Source of the DNA: a virus
DNA length: 45,861 bases
Virus record (IMG/VR): IMGVR_UViG_3300031251_000040
Coordinates: 1 to 45,861 of that record
Strand: one strand, 5' to 3'
The notes under the pieces are model-generated. The model did not search any database. It was given only the letters and a program-made list of their open reading frames with translations, and was not told the DNA's origin. A program made the position numbers and the translations under genes. Positions 35,158-45,024 of this stretch are shown piece after piece. Positions within the stretch are counted from its first letter, which is position 1. Every line of letters begins with the position of its first letter.

Positions 35158-35415
35158 ATGTTCGAGCAACAAAAAGAGCGCAAGAAACGCCCGCAAAACC
35201 CAGACGCACCAAAGGCACCCGTGGACGGCGTGGTCAAATGGTTCAATGAACCAAAGGGATTTGGTTTCATCACGCATGAGGGAAAGGACATATTTGTCCA
35301 CTACTCAGAGGTACGCGGCAACGGTTTCAAGACCTTGCACGAAGGCCAAAAGGTTCAATTTGATCTATACGAAGGTGCCAAGGGACCAATTGCTAAATCC
35401 GTGGAGGCCATCTAA
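35158..35415 (+). CDS. Cold-shock domain protein
   Basis: 85 residues. An N-terminal basic extension (about 1-22) precedes a complete cold-shock domain: [13 protein letters not shown] with RNP1, then DIFVHYSEV with RNP2, and [12 protein letters not shown]. The aromatic residues that stack on bases are intact, so it should bind single-stranded RNA or DNA and act as an RNA chaperone or antiterminator. Phage-borne copies are less common than host ones. GAGGAG lies 9 nt before the ATG. The next gene starts by TAATG overlap. Confidence 0.93.
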
Positions 35416-35699: not shown

Positions 35700-36115
35700 T
35701 GCTAATGGCAAAAGACTCTTTAAGAGAAGAACTATCCGGTTTTCCGTTAAAACCTGATGTTTTTCTGAGGGCTAAGAAAAAACTAGCTAAAGCTATTAAG
35801 TCTCATAAATATGGGGCATTTAGCTCAAAATCACGATTAGGGATTGGGCTTTGTCGAGCTGTTCGCGAGACTTGGCAAGATGTTTGTCCACCTTTTTTAG
35901 ATGACTACCATACTTTTTTGAAGCTCACCTCATACGCGGCATATCACCGAGCTGAGCTGAGTAACAATGCGTATTGGTGGCCGCGTACTCGCAAAGGCGA
36001 CAAGGCACGAATGGAAGCGCTTGATAGAGCATACGAAAAGGCCATTGAGTACAACGCTAAATTGAAGGCTTTGGAAAAGGCGACAAAGAACTTAAATGGA
36101 TCGAACAGAAGGTAG
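35699..36115 (+). CDS. Hypothetical basic helical protein
   Basis: 138 residues, Lys/Ala/Arg-rich, all-helical by composition, with a central Trp/Tyr-containing part (RAVRETWQDVCPPFLDDYH, then NNAYWWPRTRKGDKARM) and a C-terminal coiled coil. No family recognised. The ATG at 35699 overlaps the previous TAA, and a second Met lies at residue 3. It is unclear whether it belongs functionally to the ubiquitin-like cassette 600 bp downstream. Confidence 0.65.
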   Translation: MLMAKDSLREELSGFPLKPDVFLRAKKKLAKAIKSHKYGAFSSKSRLGIGLCRAVRETWQDVCPPFLDDYHTFLKLTSYAAYHRAELSNNAYWWPRTRKGDKARMEALDRAYEKAIEYNAKLKALEKATKNLNGSNRR

Positions 36116-36122
36116 AGGCATC

Positions 36123-36323
36123 ATGAAACCATGGCTTTTAATTTTACTAAGCTTAACAGCTTGCGGCAATGACCAATGTCAGCGAATGCCTATCATTCAA
36201 TGTCGAGGGCCGTTACTTTACGGTCAGTGTACATCTACGCAATTAGAGGGCTACAGCCAGTGTTTGCTGAATACGCCGCCTTCAAATGCGTATCAGTGCA
36301 AAGACTACTGGGGGGTTTATTAA
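36123..36323 (+). CDS. Small cysteine-rich lipoprotein
   Basis: 66 residues from the ATG at 36123. A short basic start, a hydrophobic core and the lipobox LTAC place the lipidated Cys at residue 14. The 52-residue mature part has five further Cys (DQCQ, IQCRG, GQCTS, SQCLL, QCKDY), which probably form disulfides in the periplasm. Small lipoproteins of this kind in phages often protect an infected host against further phage (T5 Llp-like) or act as spanins. The spanin role looks already filled, so exclusion is a reasonable guess. Confidence 0.7.
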   Translation: MKPWLLILLSLTACGNDQCQRMPIIQCRGPLLYGQCTSTQLEGYSQCLLNTPPSNAYQCKDYWGVY

Positions 36324-36727: not shown

Positions 36728-36931
36728 ATGGCAAAGAACATCACAGCACAAGTATTAGGCGGCTCACCAAAAGTTATCGAAGCTGAAACCGTTCGCGACG
36801 CTTTCGACCAACTCGGTCTATCAGGCAATTACACGGCAGCAATTAACGGCGAGACTGCGTTAATGGATAGCTCGTTAAAAGACTATCAGCACGTATCTTT
36901 CGCGCTATCTGTCAAAGGTGGCCGTAAGTAA
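36728..36931 (+). CDS. Ubiquitin-like (beta-grasp, ThiS/MoaD-type) protein ending GG-RK
   Basis: 67 residues. The strand-helix-strand pattern ITAQVLGGSPKVIEA, TVRDAFDQLGL, YTAAINGETALMDSSLKD, VSFALSVKGG matches ThiS/MoaD/prokaryotic ubiquitin-like proteins: a strand, a 'Thr-Val-x-x-Ala' helix, the 'Val/Ile-Asn-Gly' turn, and a C-terminal strand leading into Gly-Gly. Two residues (Arg-Lys) follow the Gly-Gly, so a peptidase must trim it before activation, and a JAB protease is encoded 1.7 kb downstream. The ATG follows AAAGGAAC. A terminator lies between it and the enzymes, hinting at higher expression. The fold is called from pattern, not computed. Confidence 0.72.
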   Translation: MAKNITAQVLGGSPKVIEAETVRDAFDQLGLSGNYTAAINGETALMDSSLKDYQHVSFALSVKGGRK

Positions 36932-36974
36932 TTTTACATTCAATCGAGTAGATTGATTAAAGAATGAACCCAAT

Positions 36975-37007
36975 AAAAGGGCTAGAGGTAACACTTTAGC
37001 CCTTTTT
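36975..37007 (+). terminator. Attenuator/terminator between tag gene and enzymes
   Basis: AAAAGGGCTA (36975-36984) pairs with TAGCCCTTTT (36997-37006), a 10-bp stem with a 12-nt loop, followed by TATTT. It ends or attenuates transcription 40 nt after the ubiquitin-like gene and just before the pentapeptide-E2 gene, so the small protein may be made in excess over the enzymes. Confidence 0.75.
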
Positions 37008-37023
37008 ATTTAGAAAGGTTTAC

Positions 37024-38667
37024 ATGGATTCGCAGGAAAATTCTGGGACTGAGGCAGCCCAAGACATTTTTAGGGCTCAAACGTTAGTTTTGGCAAGTCT
37101 TTATAATGATGGGCCCAGACCCATAGTGGAATCTCGACAATATCAAAATTTTTTGACGCAAGCCCTAGCCGCCCGAAATATACGTTTTATAGACCTATTT
37201 AATGCGTTAGGCACGGAAAGAAACAATATGGAAGAAATCAAAGAAATGAAAGCAGAGGAAAACTCAGAGCCAATTAAACCTCTTTTCAGTGAGGCTAAAT
37301 TACAATTATTGGAGAGGGCCCACAGGAACAAGGGGGATGTTACTTTTGCGAATCTTGATCTTCGTGGGGTTAACTTTTCTGGGAGGAGTTTTGCGGGTGC
37401 GGATTTCTCGGGTTCAAATTGTGAGGGAGTAGACTTTGACCGCAGCCAGTTGAAAGCTTGTAATTTCCAAGGGGCTAACCTTAGAAAGGCTGAATTTAGG
37501 TTTACAGATTTAACTGAGTGCAATTTTGAGGGTGCCGACCTGTCCGGCGCAGTAATCTATACGAACAATGCCGTTAGTCTAAAAGCGAGAGATGCTAATT
37601 TTGAGGGAGCAGAATTAGGGCCCTCAATTTTTGACCGTAGCGACTTTAGAGGGGCCTCTTTTGTAAATATCATAGGCCATAGGGCATGTTTTTCATACTG
37701 CGATTTTACGGGTGCTGATTTTACGGGTGCTAGATTAGATGAGGCAAATTTAATAGGGGCAATTTTAAACAATGCCAATATGACTGACGCTACCATGCGA
37801 AAGGCTCACTTCTCGACTGACCCCTCTATCGACGGATGGATTCTTAAGAACACGATTTTACTAGGGACATCTTTAGAAAAGCTTACCCCTCGCCCGTTCA
37901 ATAAAGCAAATTTCTTGCACGTAATCGCTGCGACTGCGGAAGTAAGAGAGCTTGTTAAAGACCTAACCACAGAGGAAGAGGTTCTTAAGGCCATTTTTGA
38001 ATTCAATCAAAAACCTAAACCCAAAGCACCAAAGCGACGCCAGAATAGAAGCTCCGTTCTTTTCGTCAAGGCTTATAACGAAAAGATTCAAACCGACTAT
38101 ATTGCCCAGCTACTTCGGATTACTGAAGCTATTAAAACAGCGGACCGCAGGACATCCATTGGCACTATCCGTCTATCATTTCAAACGCCGCAACCGTTGC
38201 CGCCACTCATTTCACCAGATATTTTTGAGCACCCTCTTTTCAAAGTGAGACGCATCAAAGAAATTATTAAGCGTGGCAGATCTCTAGGTACGGTTATTCG
38301 GGTTGAGACACTGGAAGACGTTTTCTACACCTGGGAGGGCAATAAAATAAACGCTGGTAAGTTTAATTTCATCATTTCTTTGGACCATCTAAATATTCGT
38401 TTCATTCCGATAGAGGAAAACTTTACAGCTAGCGCAGGGCCCTACATCCATAATCAAGATGTTTGCTTGGGCGCTAACTCTGACTCAGTTTACTCTAAAA
38501 TTCGGAATGGCCAGATTTGCGATGCCTTAACCGAGCTATACACGACGATGACTCGTTTTAACACTTCAAGTACCCCTTACGTTGGTATTGACACGTTATT
38601 TCAGAGTGCAATCGATAAGAGATTATTCCGTAATAACGGCAATTTAGTGAAAGTAGAGGCTATTTAA
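37024..38667 (+). CDS. Pentapeptide-repeat protein with E2-like C-terminal domain
   Basis: 547 residues. N-terminal helical part (1-100); a right-handed beta-helix of pentapeptide repeats at about 105-263 (LDLRG, VNFSG, ADFSG, CNFQG, ADLSG and so on); a Lys/Pro/Arg linker (about 325-345); then a domain at about 410-547. The last domain has strands KFNFIISLDHLNIRFIPI, then PYIHNQDVCLGAN with H476 and C481, and a helical tail ending with SSTPY. The His-x4-Cys-Leu-Gly element preceded by a beta meander resembles prokaryotic E2/UBC-like families of ubiquitin-like operons. A pentapeptide-E2 fusion is unusual; the repeat could select targets. AAAGG precedes the ATG, and it overlaps the JAB gene (TAATG). 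Confidence 0.7.
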   Translation: MDSQENSGTEAAQDIFRAQTLVLASLYNDGPRPIVESRQYQNFLTQALAARNIRFIDLFNALGTERNNMEEIKEMKAEENSEPIKPLFSEAKLQLLERAHRNKGDVTFANLDLRGVNFSGRSFAGADFSGSNCEGVDFDRSQLKACNFQGANLRKAEFRFTDLTECNFEGADLSGAVIYTNNAVSLKARDANFEGAELGPSIFDRSDFRGASFVNIIGHRACFSYCDFTGADFTGARLDEANLIGAILNNANMTDATMRKAHFSTDPSIDGWILKNTILLGTSLEKLTPRPFNKANFLHVIAATAEVRELVKDLTTEEEVLKAIFEFNQKPKPKAPKRRQNRSSVLFVKAYNEKIQTDYIAQLLRITEAIKTADRRTSIGTIRLSFQTPQPLPPLISPDIFEHPLFKVRRIKEIIKRGRSLGTVIRVETLEDVFYTWEGNKINAGKFNFIISLDHLNIRFIPIEENFTASAGPYIHNQDVCLGANSDSVYSKIRNGQICDALTELYTTMTRFNTSSTPYVGIDTLFQSAIDKRLFRNNGNLVKVEAI

Positions 38668-39626
38668 TGAAAATTTCAATACCGTACCATATTTATGAGC
38701 AAATTCAGTTTTACGTCGATAAGTCAGACATTGAGTGTTCAGGCCTAGGAAAGGTTGTTGTAACCCCGGAAGGATACGCCGTTACAGAGATTACCCTTCT
38801 AAAGCAAGTGAATACCTCAACGCATACGGAAATCGATTCTCATGCGGTAACGAAGGCCATGTATGACCTTCGAAACTCAGTAGGGGGCCTATATTTTTGG
38901 TGGCACTCACACGTAAACATGGGAGTTTTTTGGTCTAATACTGACATTGACACGATCAAAGAAATTGGAGCACAGGGGCTTTGTGTGGCCGTTGTGTTTA
39001 ACAAGAAAAAAGAAATGAGGGGAGCAGTATGGCTCAAAGGTACAGAGTTAAGCCCCCATCTTTATTTTGATAATGTCGCTACTCAAATTGTTCACAATAT
39101 CGCTACCGAGGAAACTAAGAAAGCGTGGTCAGCCGATTTTGAGGATAAATGTAAGCCAAGGGCCGTAAATGTCGTTGACCCCTTTAACAAAGATTACACG
39201 GGGAGCAACTTAGCTAGAATCGGGCATCAAGCGGTAGAGAATGCCGCCAGAAATGCCCCTAAAGCTTACTTTGACCTGCCCCATTTTGAGACAAAGCTAG
39301 AAGATGCAGATAGAAAGCTTCTGAATGCTTTAAGTCAGGATTTAGTTTTTGCTATCTCTGAAAGCGCTGTGGATTCGACGTTAGAGCAAATTATCCCGAT
39401 TTTAAAACGGGCTAAAGCAAGCAAAACGGATCGTCGTAACGCGATTATCGAGTATAAAAACATGGCCCTAGAGCAAAAAGAGTTCCTAATGGAGCGAAAT
39501 GATTTAATTGAAAAGGCGTGGGGCCAAAGGGACGCAGACGATGTGGACGCCGAATATGACCCAAACGAAGAGAACTATGCCCATCATGATGATATTCCCG
39601 TTCATGACCGAAACAAAATGCAATAA
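38667..39626 (+). CDS. JAB/JAMM-family metalloprotease
   Basis: 319 residues. E23 (IECSGLG) and the HSH-x7-S-x2-D motif (H80, H82, S90, D93) form a complete JAMM zinc site. Residues 1-135 are the MPN/JAB domain; the rest is helical and acidic with an Asp/Glu-rich tail. In ubiquitin-like operons such enzymes trim the tag precursor or release it from targets. Here the tag needs removal of Arg-Lys, which fits. It begins one base into the stop of the preceding gene and is followed 11 nt later by the E1-like gene. Confidence 0.88.
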   Translation: MKISIPYHIYEQIQFYVDKSDIECSGLGKVVVTPEGYAVTEITLLKQVNTSTHTEIDSHAVTKAMYDLRNSVGGLYFWWHSHVNMGVFWSNTDIDTIKEIGAQGLCVAVVFNKKKEMRGAVWLKGTELSPHLYFDNVATQIVHNIATEETKKAWSADFEDKCKPRAVNVVDPFNKDYTGSNLARIGHQAVENAARNAPKAYFDLPHFETKLEDADRKLLNALSQDLVFAISESAVDSTLEQIIPILKRAKASKTDRRNAIIEYKNMALEQKEFLMERNDLIEKAWGQRDADDVDAEYDPNEENYAHHDDIPVHDRNKMQ

Positions 39627-39637
39627 GGAGAAATCAA

Positions 39638-40345
39638 ATGTTAATTATGAGTAATACACCTTTAGAAGTTGCTAACGACCTACGAGACAAGAAACACTTA
39701 ACGCGTCATTTTGATTTAATTTCAGGCGATGGGCTCAAAAAACCCATCACAGTTATTGGGGCGGGCGGTATCGGCTCGTGGGTAACTTTTGCACTGGCTA
39801 AAATGGGCTTTGAGCATATTCGAGTCTATGACCCCGATAAGGTAGCCATTGAGAACGTCGGCAATCAACTCTATGGCATTAGCGACATTGGCAAATACAA
39901 GGTCGAGGCTTTGCGCGAAATTTGTTTAAACGTGGGATGCGAAATCAAAACAGTGCCCATGTTATTTTCACCCTTAGATGCTTGCGCAGTCGAGGGCATC
40001 GTGGTGTTAGCCGTTGATTCAATGAAAGCCCGTGCCGAAATTACAGCGGACCTTTGCGAGGATGTTGTCATGATTGATGGCCGCATGGGGGCTGAAAAGA
40101 TTCTCCTTTATACGGCCTTTGATGAGCCTACGCGCGACATTTACGCTAAAAGCCTATATTCTGACGACGAGGCCGAAAAGACGCCTTGCACTGCCAAGGC
40201 CACGAGTTACTGTGCTTTAACTATCGCGGGGCTTATCGTTGGGCAGATCAAGTCTTTCATCCAAGGGCAGCAAACTATCAAAAATATGAGTATGGATGCG
40301 GCTAGTGGGGCATCCATTCGCTTCGCTCATGCCGCTATCCAATGA
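39638..40345 (+). CDS. E1/ThiF/MoeB-like adenylyltransferase
   Basis: 235 residues. A Rossmann nucleotide loop VIGAGGIGS (39-47), an ATP-binding acidic pair D65/D67, the ENVGNQLYGISDIGKYKVEAL segment with K88, and PCTAKATSYCA with C184 and C192 (a candidate thioester cysteine) are all in E1-like order. The Arg usual in the N-x-x-R-Q motif of MoeB/ThiF is Asn76 here, a change I recall in other JAB-linked prokaryotic E1-like proteins. It should adenylate the exposed Gly-Gly end of the ubiquitin-like protein and form a thioester. AAGGAG lies before the ATG (39638). It is too short for an E1 with a separate adenylation-cysteine insertion. Confidence 0.88.
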   Translation: MLIMSNTPLEVANDLRDKKHLTRHFDLISGDGLKKPITVIGAGGIGSWVTFALAKMGFEHIRVYDPDKVAIENVGNQLYGISDIGKYKVEALREICLNVGCEIKTVPMLFSPLDACAVEGIVVLAVDSMKARAEITADLCEDVVMIDGRMGAEKILLYTAFDEPTRDIYAKSLYSDDEAEKTPCTAKATSYCALTIAGLIVGQIKSFIQGQQTIKNMSMDAASGASIRFAHAAIQ

Positions 40346-43108: not shown

Positions 43109-43120
43109 ACAAAATCTGTG

Positions 43121-43129
43121 TGCTACAAT
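43121..43129 (+). promoter_or_regulatory. Extended -10 promoter giving a leaderless mRNA
   Basis: TG-C-TACAAT (43121-43129) is an extended -10 element; only 6 nt follow before the ATG at 43136. No convincing -35 box and no ribosome site are seen. Transcription would start at the start codon. Confidence 0.45.
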
Positions 43130-43135
43130 ATAAGC

Positions 43136-43405
43136 ATGGATAAGGCGTTGAAACACCGTGGCTATATCTACTTCCTACTCGCTGAAAAAACAGATTGCGT
43201 GAAAATTGGATTCACTCGGACGACGATGGAGCGGCGTTTAAAGCTGCACACTCAATACTCTCCATACGATTATGACGTGCTAAAGGTCATTGAAGGCACT
43301 ATGCTTCAGGAGAGAAATCTACACAAAAGATTCATAAGGCTTAAGATTCGTGGGGAATGGTTCAAATATTCCGATGAGTTAAAGGATTATATCGAATCTC
43401 TCTAA
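43136..43405 (+). CDS. GIY-YIG-type (T5orf172/MUG113-like) protein
   Basis: 89 residues from the ATG at 43136; a GTG at 43118 lies inside the promoter. The pattern GYIYFLL, VKIGFTRTTMERRLKLHTQYSP, LQERNLHKRF, IRGEWFKY matches the GIY-YIG-fold family T5orf172/MUG113: first strand GYIY, second KIGFT, conserved Arg, conserved Glu and the EWF end. Many members are predicted nucleases. It is a short stand-alone protein, leading the plus-strand early block that runs across the contig junction. The stop codon lies in a hairpin (43400-43425). Confidence 0.82.
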   Translation: MDKALKHRGYIYFLLAEKTDCVKIGFTRTTMERRLKLHTQYSPYDYDVLKVIEGTMLQERNLHKRFIRLKIRGEWFKYSDELKDYIESL

Positions 43406-44309: not shown

Positions 44310-44695
44310 AAACAGAAATCAATGAAATTGCAATCAACGGGGAAGTTTACGTTAAAAAAGGAATTGAATCAAAAACAGCTTTCAATTCCGAAGGTAAAAA
44401 ATATCAAATCATTCGCACTTATTCGGCAGGTGTATTCGCCGGATATGTTGAAAGCGAAAAAACGGAAGGTGGATCAACACAAATGGTAGTTCGCGACGCG
44501 AGACGACTATGGTCTTGGGCCGGGGCCGCTTCGCTTTCTGAATTAGCGAAAAAAGGAACATCGAAACCAAATGAATGTAAATTTCCATGCGCGGTAGACC
44601 GCGTGGAACTAAAGCAAGTTATCGAAGTTTTAGATGTAACTGAAGCGGCTAAAAAATCAATTGACGGGGTTAAAGTATGGACGAATCACAACTAA
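44306..44695 (+). CDS. DUF6948-like phage protein
   Basis: 129 residues. The sequence IAINGEVYVKKG, IIRTYSAGVFAGYVES, RDARRLWSWAGAASLSELA, CKFPCAVDRVELKQVIEVLD matches a phage-specific domain that I recall as DUF6948: a beta-rich protein with a conserved AGVFAGY...RRLW-x-W...AASL core and Cys residues. The biochemical role is unknown. It directly precedes and overlaps the glycine-rich gene, a pairing I recall from other phages. Confidence 0.75.
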   Translation: MKTEINEIAINGEVYVKKGIESKTAFNSEGKKYQIIRTYSAGVFAGYVESEKTEGGSTQMVVRDARRLWSWAGAASLSELAKKGTSKPNECKFPCAVDRVELKQVIEVLDVTEAAKKSIDGVKVWTNHN

Positions 44696-45024
44696 ACGGC
44701 AGCGGCTTCAGCTACGGCGGCGGTTACGGCAGCGGCAGCGGCTTCAGCTACGGCGGCGGTTACGGCGGCGGCAGCGGCGGCGGCAGCGGCAGCGGCGACG
44801 GCAGCGGCTTCAGCTACGGCGGCGGCTTCAGCTACGGCGGCGGTTACGGCGGCGGCAGCGGCAGCGGCAGCGGCGACGGCAGCGGCTTCAGCTACGGCGG
44901 CGGCTTCGGCTACGGCAGCGGCAGCGGCTTCGGCGACGGCAGCGGTTACGGCTACGGCGACGGAGACGGCGACGGCAGCGGCAACGGATTCGTCTACGGC
45001 GGCAGCTACGGCGGCGGCAACTAA
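44677..45024 (+). CDS. Glycine-rich repetitive protein
   Basis: 115 residues. After MDESQLN almost the whole chain is built from Gly with Ser, Tyr, Phe and Asp (FSYGGGYG, SGSGFSY, GDGSGFSYGG), in a hexanucleotide-like DNA repeat (GGCGGCGGTTACGGC). Such sequences could form extended, sticky or phase-separating chains. The base composition is far richer in G and C than the rest of the window. It overlaps the DUF6948-like gene by 19 nt. Opposite-strand and other frames are long only because of the repeat. Function unknown. Confidence 0.75.
   Translation: MDESQLNGSGFSYGGGYGSGSGFSYGGGYGGGSGGGSGSGDGSGFSYGGGFSYGGGYGGGSGSGSGDGSGFSYGGGFGYGSGSGFGDGSGYGYGDGDGDGSGNGFVYGGSYGGGN

Follow-up and report, generated by a model that had tools for sequence, protein, structure and literature searches.

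The window analysed here is the whole stretch of 45,861 bases making up the virus record IMGVR_UViG_3300031251_000040, and it belongs to a tailed phage with a genome of about 46 kb, as seen from its terminase, portal-like and primase genes, the former two having been named by eye. Between the packaging and the primase genes there is a set of four genes (36728–40345), all on the plus strand, encoding in this order a candidate ubiquitin-like modifier (Ubl; 36728–36931), a pentapeptide-repeat/E2-like fusion protein (37024–38667), a JAB/JAMM metalloprotease (38667–39626) and an E1/ThiF-type adenylating enzyme (39638–40345). The fusion gene thus lies beside E1 and JAB genes; an earlier, sequence-only reading of this DNA, which mentioned an E1-like protein, had seen the set just in part and missed the Ubl candidate that completes it. 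Related loci are present in other phage contigs: L012, from a phage whose terminase is 76–77% identical to that of the window, L002, and L031, found by the search with the Ubl and coming from a more distant phage. The Ubl gene adjoins the E2 gene in the window, L002 and L012, and the order Ubl–E2–JAB–E1 is shared by the window and L002; in L031 the order is Ubl–candidate E2–JAB–E1, with several open reading frames (ORFs) lying between the first two. The Ubl and fusion genes of the window are separated by a hairpin resembling an intrinsic terminator, read from the sequence as AAAGGGCTA / TAGCCCTTT followed by a T run (36976–37007, plus strand), and hairpins with a T run, differing in sequence, are found also between the Ubl and E2 genes of L012 and L002. 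The hairpin is read as a putative terminator that would let the Ubl outnumber the enzymes; the site scan revealed promoter-like sites at the chance level only.

Concerning the other genes nearby, an ORF upstream of the cassette (35158–35415, plus strand) is conserved in L012, where its counterpart at 2341–2703 encodes a protein of the cold-shock-like kind (KWFSDTKGFGFL) with 49% identity. Just upstream of the Ubl, the window (36096–36323, plus strand) and L012 (1863–2132, minus strand) contain related small ORFs, the copy from L012 being lipoprotein-like (LLLFTSCGDN). The window further encodes a protein of the GIY-YIG/T5orf172 type adjoining the primase gene (43118–43405, plus strand) and, at 44677–45024 (plus strand), a low-complexity ORF rich in glycine, tyrosine and serine, with GGGYGSGSGFSYGGG repeats and open in several frames, which could represent a glycine-rich protein of the phage or else an artefact of tandem repeats.

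The ORF of the fusion protein is open throughout its 547 codons. Residues 105–264 (37336–37815, plus strand) consist of 32 pentapeptides in a single register, with the central residue being L, F, M, I or V in 28 of the 32 and the position two before the centre being small in 27. This region matches the Pfam family PF00805 with an E-value of 5.7e-31, and in the AlphaFold model of the full-length protein it adopts a four-sided β-helix, i.e. a coil with one bridge per five residues, with pLDDT values mostly of 80–92; residues 1–104 are modelled as mostly helical with low confidence. Foldseek retrieved pentapeptide proteins for the repeat with E-values down to 2.7e-12, the neighbours including QnrB1, AlbG, MfpA and NleL, and the NCBIfam Qnr/MfpA matches of the fusion protein are weak, far below the family cut-offs. 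The repeats proposed from the sequence for residues ~105–263 are therefore well supported by the Pfam match, the register, the model and the structural neighbours.

That the repeat module is joined to an E2-like domain in a single chain, as the sequence-only reading had also claimed, is borne out by a second phage: L012 encodes ~30 near-consensus pentapeptides in frame with the same C-terminal domain, and since this contig is independent, faulty assembly does not account for the fusion. The pentapeptide/E2-like fusion is thus real and present in at least two phages. In L002 the E2 domain is kept, and the place of the repeats is taken by a Cys-rich segment in which the unit CxxC-x6-CxC occurs twice. 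With pentapeptides in the window and L012 and the Cys-rich segment in L002, the N-terminal module therefore varies and appears to be exchangeable. No report of a pentapeptide/E2 fusion was found in the literature searched, which comprised open-licence papers only. As a separate observation, the Cys-rich units of L002 (5659–5970) resemble the Cys-rich ends of an 892-aa protein from the Xanthomonas phage PhiXhv-12 (L007, 2307–4985), and the two could possibly represent a shared zinc-binding adaptor.

The C-terminal domain covers approximately residues 291–547 (37894–38664, plus strand), and it is 38–40% identical to its counterpart in L002 and 30% to that in L012, the latter copy ending with the contig just past the cysteine motif. 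For residues 301–547, the searches of Pfam and NCBIfam yielded no family above chance, and none of the E2 families of Pfam was listed at an E-value of 10. The AlphaFold model of the domain, built from the three-sequence alignment, is of modest quality (mean pLDDT 66.8, pTM 0.56) and shows N-terminal helices followed by an antiparallel β-meander, a cysteine loop and further helices. The first ten Foldseek matches of this model in the PDB are all UEV domains of TSG101 (best E-value 0.068), and when the Foldseek candidates were aligned by VIA-align, the top 41 rows were all UBC or UEV domains, the best one having a Z-score of 7.1 over 118 residues at 3.6 Å, where a Z-score under 8 can be due to chance. 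Since this value is not decisive alone, the fold is assigned from the fact that the list is unanimous, in combination with the gene neighbourhood; taken together, the C-terminal domain is a probable E2 of the UBC fold, with the UBC-like core at about 38209–38586 (plus strand). The structural comparison suggested by the earlier reading has placed UBC/UEV domains, and not other folds, at the top, with the reservation that the model is modest and that the Z-scores do not exceed 7.1.

Within this domain, H476, C481, L482 and G483 are all found at the positions given by the earlier reading, which had proposed an H476-x4-C481-Leu-Gly motif after a β-meander; in the model, the cysteine is followed by helices. 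The residues around the cysteine are YIHNQDVCLG (window), YISHNRVCLG (L002), YLSGEAVCLG (L012) and PFSAFRSFCFG (L031), the C481-L-G being thus kept in both close homologues—L002 and L012—whereas the L031 candidate has C-F-G; a cysteine aligned with C481 occurs also in PhiXhv-12. H476, on the other hand, is absent from the equivalent place in L002, L012 and L031, and a conserved histidine of the HPN type before the cysteine is lacking, as it is in some accepted prokaryotic E2s. It follows from the alignment that C481 is conserved, which makes the cysteine of the V-C-L-G motif (38464–38466, plus strand) the candidate catalytic residue, and that H476 is not. Of the E2-like character ascribed to the domain, the structural neighbours and the conserved cysteine have thus stood, whereas the role of H476 as the conserved E2 histidine is not supported. 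It should be noted that the candidate E2 of L031, a protein of 655 aa with a β-meander followed by CFG, is only marginally similar to the E2 domains, the shuffle fraction being 0.018 against L002 and 0.44 against the window.

The candidate modifier was recognised by comparing small ORFs: in the window, L012 and L002 alike, a single conserved gene immediately precedes that of the E2. In the window it encodes 67 aa, and in the four phage contigs the protein has 66–67 residues and ends with VKGG plus a tail of one or two residues: VKGGRK in the window, and VKGGNL, VKGGL and, in L031, NVKGGC in the others. The sequence from the window is conserved at 74, 65 and 55% in L012, L002 and L031, respectively, and the copies differ mainly at the third codon position (33 differences versus 17 and 10 at the other two, and 40 versus 12 and 8); owing to this bias, the ORF is regarded as a real gene. 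A profile of three Ubl sequences searched against the PDB gave SAMP2/PF1061 as the top two entries—in effect one protein—with E-values of 0.23–0.3, and the alignment, although the match is weak (E-value 0.23), runs exactly through the terminal GG. The top two NCBIfam models (E-values 0.13–0.14) are ThiS or ThiS-like, one of them being uncharacterised and presumably ThiS-like, and the Pfam comparison did not reach PF02597. ThiS from E. coli was rejected as a relative, both the pairwise comparison and the shuffle test being negative. The SAMP2 fragment did give a high shuffle score, but the value is inflated, a search having been used to choose the fragment. Conservation, third-position bias and the SAMP2 profile match together point to a candidate ubiquitin-like modifier of the ThiS/SAMP2 kind.

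The JAB/JAMM protein (319 aa, plus strand) has its motif intact, comprising E55 within HTEID and H80-S-H82-x7-S90-x2-D93. It matches the Pfam family Prok-JAB with an E-value of 3.6e-4, below the Pfam cut-off, and its profile matches Rpn11-family chains down to an E-value of 8.8e-4; the corresponding motif in L031 is WWHSHVN...WS.TD. The E1 (plus strand), with its GAGGIGS motif and the cysteine of the P-C-T-A motif, is by its sequence clearly a ThiF-family protein, the Pfam ThiF match having an E-value of 3e-21 and 76.1 bits against the cut-off of 28.1. It is 61% identical to the copy from L002, with the P-C-T-A cysteine, which is of the catalytic type, conserved, and 39% to that from L031.

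With regard to a wider distribution, scans of bacterial genomes gave no match to the E2 domain or the terminase, and the phages of INPHARED gave none to the E2 domain, the Ubl or the terminase. A similar gene order is seen in crAss-like and Flavobacterium phages, in the form of a hypothetical protein, a metalloprotease or another hypothetical protein, and a ThiF protein, as well as in PhiXhv-12, where a 140-aa protein ending with SGG is followed by the Cys-rich 892-aa protein (HPH...CLG) and an E1. Both the protein upstream of the JAB–E1 pair in the former phages and the ~892-aa protein of PhiXhv-12 were tried as homologues of the E2 domain and rejected: the position and the C-x-G agree, and the hhalign and shuffle tests are negative. 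Sequence tests did not connect these phages to the Ubl of the window either. Due to these negative results, the genes are taken as leads only, and the sets may have arisen in parallel or be remotely related. Independently of that, crAss-like phages including crAss001 (L006, 2968–7216; L022, 4250–8660) share a conserved gene run consisting of a candidate Ubl-like N-terminus, an H...C-x-G protein, a metalloprotease and a ThiF protein, which may be another Ubl cassette, annotated just as hypothetical or thiamine biosynthesis proteins.

Bacterial ubiquitin-like conjugation is known chiefly from operons and from anti-phage defence. Against that background, the region 36728–40345 is likely to be a phage-encoded ubiquitin-like conjugation cassette, the E2 of which would possess an exchangeable target-binding module. 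The gene order, the homologues, the motifs, the fold resemblance and the coding constraint on the Ubl are observed; beyond them, we infer all of the chemistry, what is targeted and how the phage would profit. The Ubl would be synthesised with a tail of one or two residues past its Gly-Gly, and that tail would present an obvious task for the JAB protease, which would trim it and possibly also strip the Ubl from targets. The ThiF-type E1 would then adenylate the Ubl glycine and hand the Ubl to its own cysteine, from which C481 of the UBC-like domain would take it and transfer it to a lysine of the target protein. The pentapeptide β-helix would bring the target and do the work of an E3, this module being regarded as exchangeable because L002 has the Cys-rich segment in the same place. 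The fusion protein is therewith a plausible candidate for a combined E2/E3. A more far-reaching version, in which a self-contained phage system modifies proteins of the host or of the phage itself in infected cells by means of an E3-free, single-chain E2/E3 with an exchangeable N-terminal module, is put forward tentatively, its chances being judged as somewhat below even.

The part played by the repeats could be read differently even if the conjugation cassette as such is accepted. The presence of QnrB1, AlbG and MfpA among the Foldseek neighbours, together with the NCBIfam Qnr/MfpA matches, would agree with a DNA mimic of the Qnr/MfpA/AlbG type by which the enzyme docks on gyrase or on some other protein that binds DNA; alternatively, the helix might be a spacer or a dimerising rod. 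Such matches are, however, to be expected for this type of repeat in general and do not come near the family cut-offs, the repeats of L012 are plain consensus units and L002 has none; moreover, docking on gyrase would itself be a choice of target. Such a role is therefore considered unlikely.

The remaining two alternatives concern the chemistry itself. In one of them, the Ubl would be a sulfur carrier, with the E1 making its thiocarboxylate, the JAB protein trimming its tail and the UBC-like protein acting as a scaffold, so that sulfur would be moved in place of protein tags. This would suit both the ThiS-like character of the nearest Ubl profiles and the minimal, ThiF-type E1. An E2-like partner with a conserved cysteine would, however, be unexpected there, and neither a sulfur-metabolism gene nor a rhodanese or a cysteine desulfurase was seen in the ORF lists, inspected by eye with the family scan covering the vicinity of the cassette, so that this possibility is held to be quite improbable. 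In the other, the C-terminal domain would be an inactive Ubl-binding domain of the UEV/RWD kind with C481 serving a structural role, as the catalytically dead TSG101 UEV domains at the top of the structural matches and the absent or non-conserved HPN-type histidine might suggest. Against it speak the location of C481 between the meander and the helices, its retention in every close homologue, the cysteines aligned with it in L031 and PhiXhv-12, and the failure to recognise a further E2 among the genes of the cassette, so that it is considered very unlikely. If the reading as a conjugation cassette is true, a phage of ~46 kb encoding a Ubl, E1, E2 and JAB for itself would show this chemistry at work on the attacker's side, and an E2 with a swappable rod-like module would offer a simple test of target choice without a separate E3, the whole cassette being small enough to be rebuilt in vitro in one experiment.

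Among the known systems, bacterial operons for Ubl, JAB, E1 and E2 were described as early as 2006, some of their E2s being devoid of the classical histidine (Iyer et al. 2006; PMC1779556, Table 1, rows 6a–6e). The present cassette shares with them the four functional parts—a small Ubl, a JAB, an E1 and an E2-like protein—and is by its composition of this known prokaryotic kind, although it differs in being borne by a phage, in having a pentapeptide β-helix at the N-terminus of the E2 and in the E2 matching no E2 family of Pfam. As for the PRTRC system, the E1 weakly matches PRTRC_ThiF (E-value 3e-12, far below the cut-off) and the C-x-G is in register by hhalign, whereas the Ubl and the E2 match neither PF14454 (Prok_Ub) nor PF14460 (Prok-E2_D), respectively, and no other PRTRC genes were recognised near the cassette. 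PRTRC_B/Prok-E2_D was accordingly rejected as the identity of the E2, the cysteine being aligned but the hhalign probability of 0.12 not being significant. The archaeal SAMP2 is likewise a small ThiS-like modifier, and the phage Ubl matches it better than any other PDB entry; it stops, however, at the GG in the aligned chain, whereas the phage Ubl has a tail. The archaeal SAMP conjugation is not known to require an E2.

The CBASS proteins Cap2 and Cap3 represent an E1-E2 fusion and a JAB (PMC10097602). CBASS and Bil have the E1, E2 and JAB activities that are predicted for the cassette, and the E1 of the window is locally similar to the E1-E2 models of PADLOC, whereas here the E1 and the E2 are separate chains carried by a phage, with no CD-NTase or effector recognised. 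Membership in CBASS was rejected, PADLOC having revealed just the local similarity of the E1, and by the tests made here, all at the sequence level, the cassette appears to be neither PRTRC nor CBASS. Finally, the E3 ligases of the NleL/SopA type combine a β-helix of the pentapeptide type with a ubiquitin-transfer domain on one chain; theirs is a HECT-like E3 domain using host ubiquitin, whereas here an E2-like domain would act with its own Ubl. By analogy, NleL is a precedent for the pairing of a β-helix repeat with ubiquitin transfer.
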